Assembly: GCA_947626525.1 (NCBI GenBank)
Contig: CANQSM010000010.1
Location: 1 to 55,145, forward strand
DNA length: 55,145 bases
DNA from: an uncultured Phocaeicola sp.
Lineage (GTDB): Bacteria > Bacteroidota > Bacteroidia > Bacteroidales > Bacteroidaceae
Reading direction: 5' to 3'
Position numbers and translations under genes: made by a program. Position 1 is the first letter of the stretch, and the number at the start of each line of letters is the position of its first letter. The notes beneath the pieces were generated by a model. The model ran no database searches. It worked only from the letters and a program-made list of their open reading frames with translations, and had not been told where the DNA came from. Below, piece after piece: positions 18,417 through 30,168 of the stretch.

Positions 18417-21400
18417 ATGGAAATTATTGATAATATAAACAAGACACTTAAAGAGGATATGATTGCCACCTTGCGCTCCGGCTCGAAGGTAGCGATTGCC
18501 GCGTCAAGTTTCTCTATCTATGCTTTCCAAGAGTTGAAGGAGAAGTTGGAAGATATTTCAGAACTGCGGTTTATTTTCACCTCACCTTCTTTTATTACAG
18601 AAAAGACTGATAAGCAAAAGCGAGAGTTCTATATTCCTCGCCTGAACCGTGAGCGTGATCTCTATGGCTCGGAATTTGAAATCAAACTCCGAAATGAACT
18701 ATCGTTGAAAGCCGTTGCAAAGGAATGTGCCGAATGGATCAGGAAGAAAGTATGTTTTAAGTCCAACCGCACTAATGCCGGTATGCCAGCTTTTGCGACT
18801 ATCGATGATACGACCTATATGCCGCTCAATGGTTTTACGACAGTGGAACTTGGCTGTGAACGAGGCAATAACCTTGCAACAGCCATCACGAAGATGGAGT
18901 CTCCGTTTACACAGCAATACCTACAGATTTTCAATCAAATCTGGAATGATGGAAGTCAACTTCAAGTTGTAACGGAACAGGTACTTGACAACATCACAAA
19001 CGCATATAAGGAAAATTCCCCGGAGTTTATCTACTTCGTTACCCTTTACAACATCTTCAGTGAGTTTCTCGAAGATATATCTGAGGACATCCTACCTAAC
19101 GAAGCAACCGGCTTCAAGTCGAGTGTAATCTGGAATAAACTCTATAATTTCCAACGCGACGCGGCGCTCGCCATCATCAATAAACTTGAAAAGTATAACG
19201 GCTGCATCCTTGCTGACTCAGTTGGTCTTGGTAAGACATTTACCGCTTTGTCCGTAATTAAGTATTACGAGAACCGCAACAAGTCCGTCCTCGTTCTCTG
19301 CCCGAAAAAACTCCACGACAACTGGGTTACGTACCGTTCCAACTATAAGAATAATCCGCTTGTTGCAGACCGTCTGCGCTATGATATTCTTTATCATACC
19401 GACCTTTCACGTCAGTCAGGGCAAAGCAACGGTCTTGACCTCGAACACATCAATTGGGGTAACTACGACCTTGTGGTGATTGACGAAAGCCACAATTTCC
19501 GCAATGGCGGCAAGGTTACCACAGATGAGAACGACGAGAATCCCCGTGAGAACCGCTATCTCCAGTTGATGAATAAGGTTATCCGTTCAGGGGTCAAGAC
19601 CAAGGTGCTGATGCTGTCGGCTACGCCTGTCAACAACCGCTTCAATGACTTGCGCAACCAGCTCGCTCTTGCCTACGAGGGCGACAGCTCGCAGATGGAT
19701 GCAAAACTCAAAACATCCAGTACGCTTGAAGATATATTCCGCCAAGCTCAGGCTGCCTTTAATAAGTGGTCAAAGTTACCTTCGGAAGATCGAACTACGA
19801 AGACTCTGCTTGAAATGCTTAGTTTCGACTTCTTTGAGGTGCTTGACAGCGTTACCATCGCAAGAAGCCGAAGGCATATCGAGCAATACTACGACACGAC
19901 CGATATAGGCAAGTTCCCTGAAAGGTTAAAGCCTATTTCTCTACGTCCTAATTTGACAGATCTCCCGAAAACCGTTGATTTCAACGACATCTTTGTGAGC
20001 GTCAGCGAACTCAACCTCGCTATCTATACTCCTTCCGACTTTATCTTGCCGAGCAAGTTGGATAAATACACCGAACCGCGTGAAGATGGACGTTTTGGCA
20101 ATCTTTCACGTGCCGGACGCGAACGGGGTATCCGTCAGTTGATGAGCATCAACCTGCTCAAACGTCTTGAAAGTTCGGTAAACTCTTTCCGCTTAACACT
20201 TGAAAGGATTCGGAAATACATTGCCACTACAATAGGAGCAATAGACGCCCTTACAATGCGTCATGAGGTTTCGATGGTATGTGACTATGATTTCTCATAC
20301 GGCCTTGACTTCGACGAGCGAGAGGATACAGTCTTTATCGGTAACAAGAAAACCAAGATAAATCTGGAGGATATGGACTACATCCAGTGGCGTAGGTATC
20401 TTGCCAAAGACCTTGACAATTTGAATACGCTGCTGTACATGCTCGGCGACATCACACCCGAACATGACAGCAAACTGCAGATGCTCATTGATGTAATCCG
20501 TGAAAAATTTGCCAATCCCATAAACGGAGATAACCGCAAAATCATCGTCTTCACTGCTTTTTCCGACACTGCACAATACATCTATGATAATATAGCTCCA
20601 CTCATCAAGGAGCGGACTGGTCTTAACACCGCACTTGTCTCAGGCGATGTAGAGGCTCGTTCCACCTTAAAACTCCGGGAAAAGCTTGATTTCAATAAGG
20701 TATTGACTTTGTTCTCACCTGTATCGAAAGACCGCTCCACGCTATATCCAAATCTCAATGAGGAAATAGATGTGCTTATAGCCACCGACTGTATTTCCGA
20801 AGGTCAGAATCTTCAGGATTGCGACTTCCTGATTAACTACGATATACACTGGAATCCTGTACGTATCATTCAACGTTTCGGACGTATCGACCGCATAGGC
20901 TCGCGGAACGAGAAAATTCAGCTTGTCAATTTCTGGCCGGACATGGACCTTGACGATTACATTGACCTCAAAGGACGTGTCGAGGCGCGAATGAAGGTGT
21001 CGGTACTAACAGCCACAGGTGATGATAATCCACTTTCAGTAGAAGAACAAGGTGATCTAAAATATCGTCGCGACCAGTTGGAACGCCTGAAAGAGGAAGT
21101 CGTCGATATTGAGGAGATGAATACGGGAGTTTCCATCATGGACTTAGGGCTTAATGAATTCCGCCTTGACCTACTTGAATATATGCGAAGCGGCGTTGAC
21201 ATTGAACATACTCCGATGGGGCTTCATGCTGTTACCCCAACAAGTAAGGATGCTCCCAAAGGCGTAATTTTCGTATTGAAGAACCGCAATAACGACATCA
21301 ATATCGACCGTAAGAACCGTTTGCATCCGTTCTACATGGTCTATATATCGCAAGACTCCGAGGTTATAGTCAATCATCTTGACCCAAAGGGGATGCTTGA

Positions 21401-21656
21401 CCGTATGCGTCAGTTATGTCGTGGCAAATCCGAGCCGATTTCAGAGCTTTGTCGAAAGTTCAACGCAGAGACTCGTGACGGTCAGCGGATGGGCACATAC
21501 TCCAGACTTCTCGGTGACGCTATATCTTCGCTGATAGCGACAAAAGAGACTACCGACCTCTTTTCGTTCCTTGATGGCGACAACGGCTCTCTTTTCGGCA
21601 ATGAAGTCAAAGGTCTTGATGATTTTGAGTTAATATGTTTTCTGATAATCCGATAA
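18417..21656 (+). CDS. SNF2-family helicase with PLD-like N-terminus
   Basis: 1,079 residues from ATG 18417; an in-frame ATG at 18327 would add 30 residues. The N-terminus (about 15-60, GSKVAIAASSFSIYAFQEL) resembles the phospholipase-D-like half domain found on some defence helicases; I do not see a full HKD motif. The motor has Walker A DSVGLGKT (Lys273), Walker B IDESH (356-359), SATPVNNR, ATDCISEGQNLQDCD, and motif VI QRFGRIDRIG (from 819). The ending FDDFELICFLIIR is a typical family tail. It is expected to translocate on duplex DNA using ATP. It leads a co-directional run with DUF4391, Mod and Res genes, so its role is likely in that restriction-type system. Confidence 0.9.
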   Translation: MEIIDNINKTLKEDMIATLRSGSKVAIAASSFSIYAFQELKEKLEDISELRFIFTSPSFITEKTDKQKREFYIPRLNRERDLYGSEFEIKLRNELSLKAVAKECAEWIRKKVCFKSNRTNAGMPAFATIDDTTYMPLNGFTTVELGCERGNNLATAITKMESPFTQQYLQIFNQIWNDGSQLQVVTEQVLDNITNAYKENSPEFIYFVTLYNIFSEFLEDISEDILPNEATGFKSSVIWNKLYNFQRDAALAIINKLEKYNGCILADSVGLGKTFTALSVIKYYENRNKSVLVLCPKKLHDNWVTYRSNYKNNPLVADRLRYDILYHTDLSRQSGQSNGLDLEHINWGNYDLVVIDESHNFRNGGKVTTDENDENPRENRYLQLMNKVIRSGVKTKVLMLSATPVNNRFNDLRNQLALAYEGDSSQMDAKLKTSSTLEDIFRQAQAAFNKWSKLPSEDRTTKTLLEMLSFDFFEVLDSVTIARSRRHIEQYYDTTDIGKFPERLKPISLRPNLTDLPKTVDFNDIFVSVSELNLAIYTPSDFILPSKLDKYTEPREDGRFGNLSRAGRERGIRQLMSINLLKRLESSVNSFRLTLERIRKYIATTIGAIDALTMRHEVSMVCDYDFSYGLDFDEREDTVFIGNKKTKINLEDMDYIQWRRYLAKDLDNLNTLLYMLGDITPEHDSKLQMLIDVIREKFANPINGDNRKIIVFTAFSDTAQYIYDNIAPLIKERTGLNTALVSGDVEARSTLKLREKLDFNKVLTLFSPVSKDRSTLYPNLNEEIDVLIATDCISEGQNLQDCDFLINYDIHWNPVRIIQRFGRIDRIGSRNEKIQLVNFWPDMDLDDYIDLKGRVEARMKVSVLTATGDDNPLSVEEQGDLKYRRDQLERLKEEVVDIEEMNTGVSIMDLGLNEFRLDLLEYMRSGVDIEHTPMGLHAVTPTSKDAPKGVIFVLKNRNNDINIDRKNRLHPFYMVYISQDSEVIVNHLDPKGMLDRMRQLCRGKSEPISELCRKFNAETRDGQRMGTYSRLLGDAISSLIATKETTDLFSFLDGDNGSLFGNEVKGLDDFELICFLIIR

Positions 21657-30100: not shown

Positions 30101-30168
30101 ATAACGTCAAATATCATAAGGTAACTTGTTACCAAGACCTTATTGACGCAATGACGGCAAACAAATAA
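27106..30168 (+). CDS. Type III restriction enzyme Res subunit
   Basis: 1,020 residues from ATG 27106. Helicase core: Walker A TGTGKT (Lys106), Walker B DEPQ (Asp232-Gln235), [29 protein letters not shown], and motif VI [13 protein letters not shown]. The C-terminal nuclease has a PD-(D/E)xK set: Asp950 in YAPDWAI and E968-T-K970 in FFIAETKGS. With Mod, it is expected to move along DNA by ATP hydrolysis and cut when two unmethylated head-to-head sites are present. All key residues are seen, so the enzyme looks active. It follows the four-helix-bundle cassette and probably belonged directly after mod. Confidence 0.93.
   Translation: [1020 protein letters not shown]

Follow-up and report, generated by a model that had tools for sequence, protein, structure and literature searches.

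A widespread type III restriction-modification operon extended by an SNF2 helicase and a DUF4391 protein, found in an uncultured Phocaeicola

The window analysed here is a 55,145-nucleotide stretch from an uncultured Phocaeicola sp. (assembly GCA_947626525.1, contig CANQSM010000010.1, positions 1 to 55,145). On its + strand, a co-directional run of seven open reading frames (ORFs) extends from 18327 (probable start, ATG 18417) to 30168 and encodes, in order, an SNF2 helicase, an ORF6N protein, DUF4391, a 591-residue protein, Mod, a 23S_rRNA_IVP/four-helix-bundle protein and Res. SNF2, DUF4391, Mod and Res are the core of an extended type III restriction-modification (R-M) system that is real and widespread, while the ORF6N, 591-residue and IVP proteins are cargo, as perhaps is a Fic protein further downstream. 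The features of the locus are as follows.

18417..21656, + strand: SNF2 helicase with an N-terminal PLD-type domain without HxK..GSxN (C3a139 match, alignment, ATPase motifs)
21635..22372, + strand: ORF6N-domain protein, cargo in the SNF2-DUF4391 slot (PF10543, 3e-29; PADLOC PDC-S05, 4e-70)
22425..23030, + strand: DUF4391 protein (PF14335, 1.3e-32; the ORF opens at TTG 22419, with ATG at 22425)
23027..24802, + strand: 591-residue protein with a weak DUF4365-like N-terminus (E=0.073; homologues), cargo in the DUF4391-Mod slot
24774..26672, + strand: Mod, type III beta-class DNA methylase with an exchangeable central recognition region (PF01555, 8e-32 in Pfam; MTase_III, 1e-199 in PADLOC)
26755..27075, + strand: 23S_rRNA_IVP/four-helix-bundle protein, cargo in the Mod-Res slot (PF05635, 2e-27)
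27097..30168, + strand: Res, type III superfamily 2 (SF2) ATPase with a C-terminal PD-ExK endonuclease (TTG 27097, ATG at 27106; PF19778, 3e-32 in Pfam; REase_III, 2e-287 in PADLOC)
30181..30891, + strand: 236-residue protein, possible downstream cargo (no Pfam match)
30904..31776, + strand: Bro-N and Fic protein, possible downstream cargo (PF02661, 2e-12; PF02498, 9e-6)

The SNF2 ORF opens at 18327, and ATG 18417 was preferred as the start because homologues align from there; the protein matched the PADLOC model C3a139, named 'HKD+Snf2', at 1.6e-119. An earlier sequence-only reading had described a co-directional run with SNF2 helicase, DUF4391, Mod and Res, which was borne out by the ORFs and by the Pfam and PADLOC matches. 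The five genes it listed were all present, but it had overlooked two, those for the ORF6N protein (21635-22372) and the IVP protein (26755-27075). Starts that overlap or nearly touch, as it put it, were found in part: three junctions overlap by 22, 4 and 29 bases, but the others are gaps of about 50, 82 and 21 bases. Mod and Res share one operon, with one cargo gene (IVP) between them, and the tight spacing carries on beyond 30168, through 30181-30891 and the Bro-N/Fic gene at 30904-31776.

The pair at the heart of the operon has the features of type III enzymes, namely a beta-class methylase with a recognition region and an SF2 ATPase joined to a PD-ExK nuclease. The motifs of Res were read as intact before, and those of both Mod and Res are so in the window; they were invariant in 72/72 loci for Mod and in 71/72 for Res (one gap), nuclease motif included. 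The SNF2 ATPase motifs were likewise invariant in 72/72 loci. Among the four core proteins, only Res has a recognisable intact nuclease. In six of six pairs of loci chosen for close SNF2 the central region of Mod diverged, least in L093/L099, which points to a working site-specific system.

To measure how often the four genes occur together, genomes in GTDB were scanned with an SNF2 alignment and the best 80 of 557 relatives were kept, a sample that favours close kin. Where 9 kb or more could be read downstream of SNF2, DUF4391 was found in 52/52, Mod in 52/52 and Res in 51/52, and all three followed SNF2 in 51 of these 52 fully readable relatives. With at least 4 kb downstream the counts were 65/65, 65/65 and 63/65, and over all 80 loci, short ones included, they were 79, 70 and 63. 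At least one partner was absent in 17 of the 80; 15 of these have less than 4 kb downstream, and the remaining two are L077 and L090. The C3a139 model gave a score of at least 360 bits to 12 helicases in 149 order genomes (next best, 253), and every one has a DUF4391 match within about 1.5 kb. Four of these matches are weak (24-30.5 bits) and located in the methylases of a sister group considered below, and the remaining eight SNF2 genes lie near a Res, which has 34 places in 29 genomes in all; in two of the eight, G116 and G035, the four genes stand in a different order. Four of 16 DUF4391 places did not adjoin a high-scoring SNF2: G137 lies at a contig end, G039 has SNF2 in pieces, one is a second copy in the G035 locus, and at G096:C15 no SNF2 match was found in the stretch read. 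Because of the census (52/52, 52/52 and 51/52) and the DUF4391 match beside 12/12 SNF2 helicases, the association of the genes is not due to chance; the profile searches proposed with the sequence-only reading found the core families linked more often than by chance (51/52; 12/12).

Nine phyla or candidate phyla are named in the records that hold linked Res proteins (Bacteroidota, Bacillota, Pseudomonadota, Actinomycetota, Verrucomicrobiota, Spirochaetota, Fibrobacterota, Melainabacteria and FCPU426), and many of these records are metagenome bins. An SNF2 homologue was also present on 121 of 72,556 plasmid records. Four plasmid loci were read and carry SNF2, DUF4391, Mod and Res, with an unnamed 185-residue protein in the DUF4391 position in Listeria; one of the four has SNF2 split by an insertion sequence and one has inserts. 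In E. coli a near copy was found in 10 of 5426 genomes, and 10 of its 11 places are on plasmids. The cargo-free operon on E. coli plasmid NZ_CP101235 (L177:3254-12300) lies on a 115-kb element, next to an exonuclease gene and genes for replication such as dnaE; this element is perhaps a phage-plasmid.

The Res tree (86 rows, FastTree, with long-branch warnings) placed 65 of 66 linked Res in one group, together with two of 20 rows labelled classic, one of which (L114) is truncated by a contig end and the other of which is L112; L013 is the sole linked row outside. Distance matrices of the four proteins correlated with r of 0.56-0.83 over 72 full loci, and no permutation exceeded 0.29. The suggestion that the locus is more than a two-gene type III system was therefore upheld, all partners being present in 51/52 relatives and the linked Res forming nearly one clade. 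We are highly confident that SNF2, DUF4391, Mod and Res make up a dedicated four-gene type III variant.

The SNF2 protein was said to have a PLD-like start. A PLD-type domain is indeed there, but the active-site pattern HxK..GSxN is absent. In an SNF2 alignment of 97 rows the pattern was found in 9 and missing from 86, with 2 unreadable at that place, and the stretches read for the nine rows show neither Mod nor Res. In 26 further phylum loci, 16 rows lacked the pattern, of which 15 adjoined DUF4391 and one (L160) adjoined Mod and Res, Res being visible in 10; eight rows had the pattern, seven beside an Eco57I-type methylase and one cut; and two were cut at the N-terminus, one of them beside an Eco57I-type methylase. 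A tree of the helicase part (122 rows, FastTree, with long-branch warnings) showed 101 pattern-less rows as one group (support 92) inside 17 pattern-bearing rows; four rows truncated at the N-terminus were left unscored, and part of the PLD domain may be missing from a split ORF such as L159. The pattern was thus absent from the linked SNF2 proteins (101 rows, one group). The loss of the site looks like one event, in the lineage that bears Mod and Res, and the nuclease was quite probably retired in the lineage joined to Mod-Res. Having lost the active-site pattern, the PLD part is unlikely to serve as an additional nuclease. Comparison of the SNF2 motor with solved structures returned general SNF2 and other helicases only.

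The pattern-bearing relatives point to where DUF4391 may have come from. In the 12 nearest sister loci the helicase has an Eco57I-type methylase beside it in 11, the N-terminus of the methylase being DUF4391-like in most, and residues ~107-222 of these methylases matched DUF4391 in 9 of 11 by Pfam (best 1.2e-7); the full methylase of sister locus L020 matched at 6e-6, under the curated cut-off. When a DUF4391-core profile was run against 8060 ORFs, eight of the first nine weak matches to longer or unlabelled ORFs were sister methylases, at the same place, and individually not significant (E 0.003-0.43). Among solved structures, DUF4391 matched only designed coiled coils, and the sister-methylase N-terminus matched none. 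Whether DUF4391 is a methylase-side domain that was freed as an adaptor seems to us evenly balanced. The sister operons have the same SNF2 family and the DUF4391-like region in their methylase; they differ from the window in that their PLD site is intact, that no Mod or Res was seen in the stretches read, and that their partner is an Eco57I-type methylase, whereas the partner in the window is an N6_N4_Mtase (Mod). It appears that an SNF2 armed with a nuclease became linked to a type III pair and that this nuclease was retired. Candidate DUF4391-Mod fusions in L016 and L160 were rejected as out-of-frame ORF extensions, in which only Mod matched and the N-terminal parts read another frame.

The operon was then compared with known systems. 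Classical type III enzymes methylate one strand, cut about 25 bp from the site and require two sites in inverted orientation. EcoP1I and EcoP15I share their enzyme domains with the Mod and Res of the window, and an exchangeable Mod centre, described for EcoP1/EcoP15 (PMC3874151), is found in both; the window differs in two extra constant genes, SNF2 and DUF4391, and in its own Res clade. The need for two inverted unmodified sites lets T7 escape EcoP15I (PMC12707154). Murray et al. (2021) reported two type III systems, Eco86II and BspHIV, in which a helicase-like ATPase is encoded 5' of mod, and such an ATPase in close proximity in more than 500 genomes (PMC8259958). Evidence against this published helicase being of the same family comes from the Eco86II locus in NCTC86, which was assigned by gene order as the sole type III set in the ~200 kb of chromosome read: its helicase is DrmD-like (663 bits, against only 79 with C3a139) and directly precedes mod, no DUF4391 lies between the genes, and its Res has no significant BLASTP similarity to that of the window. 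These three-gene systems resemble the window operon in having an SNF2-type ATPase before Mod and Res, and the window operon lacks the DrmD-like features. With the locus matched by gene order, the Eco86II-type coupling would be independent of, and analogous to, the SNF2-DUF4391 operon. A type III locus in L128 (G139:C37) has a piece of a different SNF2-type helicase upstream of Mod, like the published three-gene systems.

Type-2 BREX-related systems, with an HKD-helicase, a DUF499 ATPase and DUF3780, share with the window the HKD domain before an SNF2 helicase and a methylase-based defence (PMC12839542); neither DUF499 nor DUF3780 was found in Pfam scans of ten window locus proteins. The same ten proteins were scanned with PADLOC, SNF2 and Mod being judged on their best 25 matches. 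Among the matches listed there was no PglZ or BrxC of BREX, no DrmB (DUF1998) of DISARM, and no dndCDE or ssp genes of Dnd/Ssp, in agreement with the earlier statement that BREX, DISARM and Dnd do not fit. SNF2 gave general helicase matches to BrxHI/HII (84 bits), DrmD (123 bits) and DrmA (66 bits), and a weak dnd_restrict_1 helicase match was the only one to Dnd. Neither the SNF2-DUF4391-Mod-Res set nor the PADLOC name C3a139 was described in the literature searched, largely without subscription journals; DUF4391 by itself is named in one paper there.

We lean slightly toward the reading that this is an extended type III system whose SNF2 motor is tied on by DUF4391 and aids Res. Mod would mark host sites and recognise unmarked ones, the DUF4391 adaptor would tie the SNF2 motor to the Mod/Res complex, and the motor would act on DNA at or near unmethylated Mod sites. 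Res would move along and cut. With the PLD site lost and the SNF2 ATPase and Res nuclease motifs intact, the simplest reading is that Res supplies the cut and that the PLD domain has been retained for a different purpose, which would be a platform for binding DNA or a partner. With help from SNF2, Res may also fire in situations that leave a classical type III enzyme inactive, at a lone site or at sites in the same orientation, a relaxation of the site requirement that we propose tentatively and consider somewhat unlikely. As first suggested, the additional helicase and the DUF protein may possibly contribute a step of sensing or an effector step. The full scenario, in which a nuclease-armed SNF2/methylase system merged with Mod-Res, the nuclease was retired, DUF4391 was freed and a two-motor enzyme arose that cuts DNA spared by classical type III, is speculative and in our view doubtful.

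Several observations weigh against an SNF2 motor joined to Mod and Res through DUF4391. L077 has two Mod and no Res in 5 kb, and L090 has no Res in 10 kb. The L112 Res lies inside the linked clade, yet the stretches read there show neither SNF2 nor DUF4391, and for G081 there was no match in the scans of the 149 order genomes for DUF4391 and high-scoring SNF2; given these two, the pair may be dispensable. Recombination breaks were found on both sides of DUF4391: in L017/L067 and L031/L034/L048 SNF2 is close, yet DUF4391, Mod and Res are all distant, and DUF4391 has remained with SNF2 in L038/L080. On the tree the PLD site was lost only once, so the link of this loss with Mod-Res counts as one correlation, and the profile-profile match of DUF4391 to the sister methylase was moderate (42-63%). 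Also, the analogous but different extra helicase of the published systems was not needed for methylation and gave no peptides in the Eco86II cutting fraction (PMC8259958).

Some of these observations suit a different reading, in which Mod-Res is a complete ordinary type III system and SNF2-DUF4391 a separate defence module sharing the operon and the methyl mark, for example a motor that clears proteins from DNA or stops phages from replicating. All motifs of Mod and Res are preserved, L112 seems to live without the pair, SNF2 stands in another gene order in G116 and G035, and a close SNF2 can pair with quite different DUF4391, Mod and Res (L017/L067). However, the near-constant linkage over nine phyla, the matched trees and the own Res clade point to a joint machine, and we consider separate modules rather unlikely. 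It is less probable still that SNF2-DUF4391 serves modification or control, remodelling DNA for Mod or restraining Res on the host chromosome. The DUF4391-like region at the N-terminus of the sister-operon methylase would fit such a role, as would type III systems making N4-methylcytosine (m4C) in which Mod requires Res to methylate, but a different extra helicase is not required for methylation (both PMC8259958). SNF2 acting itself as the nuclease effector through a divergent PLD site would be in keeping with the conservation of its N-terminal domain (50% mean column identity across 58 rows), yet HxK..GSxN is missing from 86/97 rows (9 with, 2 unreadable) and, in linked rows, the active-site positions are variable and the scaffold positions constant, which makes this very improbable. 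Chance neighbours in a defence island, a reading that fits an insertion between housekeeping genes with unrelated cargo and stands for that cargo, are refuted for the four core genes by the census, the Res clade and the correlated matrices, and for these are extremely improbable.

The insertion itself is suggested by comparison within the genus. A C1-like peptidase gene (left) and nqrA (right) are about 110 bases apart in genome G544 and ~2.3-2.4 kb apart in G541 and G551, compared with ~16.3 kb in the window, which makes it very likely that the block was inserted between housekeeping genes. A second core copy in the same genome (L011, contig C40, G000:C40:5000-24999) has SNF2-DUF4391-Mod-Res without inserts, its SNF2 being 62% and its Res 43% identical to those of the window. 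Before nqrA lies an intergenic repeat (31967-32253) which recurs in at least eight further places in the genome, 84-90% identical over ~185-237 bases, and holds an internal stretch matching on both strands. At 17643-18145 there is a frame with seven stops, part of which (17723-18084) is matched in relatives; it resembles the broken C-terminal part of a DUF4143-type ATPase.

Of 90 loci examined, 68 hold the core genes in order, and their cargo was listed; the ORFs were called mechanically, and some inserts may be spurious. There were 74 extra ORFs inside the core, 8 between SNF2 and DUF4391, 36 between DUF4391 and Mod, and 30 between Mod and Res. Among the Pfam families listed (best 25 of 47), Schlafen/AlbA_2 accounted for 5 of the 74, Fic for 4, RhuM and zeta toxin for 3 each, and YhcG, DUF4143, Abi_C and IVP for 2 each, with single Abi_2, HEPN, DUF4276 and others; several ORFs matched the PADLOC single-gene candidates PDC-S04, S05 and S23. 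ORFs between Mod and Res were also found in 11 of 20 order loci without the SNF2-DUF4391 pair, and the slots are therefore not special to the four-gene variant. Homologues of the 591-residue protein were found in L048 and L054 alone, and its family in 3 of the 68 loci, which contradicts its earlier place, under the label DUF4365, as a constant part of the system. The label itself is plausible but weak: the L054 homologue matched DUF4365 at 1.5e-4 (22.3 bits, cut-off 24.3), but the window protein had no Pfam match at 0.01 and only E=0.073 in a direct scan, and a six-frame genome search for DUF4365 gave nothing up to E=10, though no control matched there either. The start of the 30181-30891 protein reads like a SIR2-like GAGxS motif, and this is perhaps a truncated defence gene.

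The cargo proteins are possibly guards of the system. There is a precedent in PrrC, an effector-like gene nested between the R-M genes of a type I locus (PMC12707154); the nesting is the same here, in a type III-like operon with varied cargo. In L064, L101 and L180, pairs of an AAA ATPase and a TOPRIM-type protein (DUF3226 or DUF4276) lie inside the operon and are PARIS-like by their families. PARIS detects anti-restriction proteins.

The slots within the operon offer candidate defence genes. The constant extra motor in loci of nine phyla, together with SNF2 on plasmids, suggests that the type III design has been extended, and DUF4391 gains a testable role. The sister operons, with a live nuclease and a DUF4391-like part in their methylase, show how R-M systems may exchange parts. 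If the merger is true, this would be a widespread, undescribed kind of R-M system, and the DrmD-like SNF2 found with another type III lineage would be a case of convergence.

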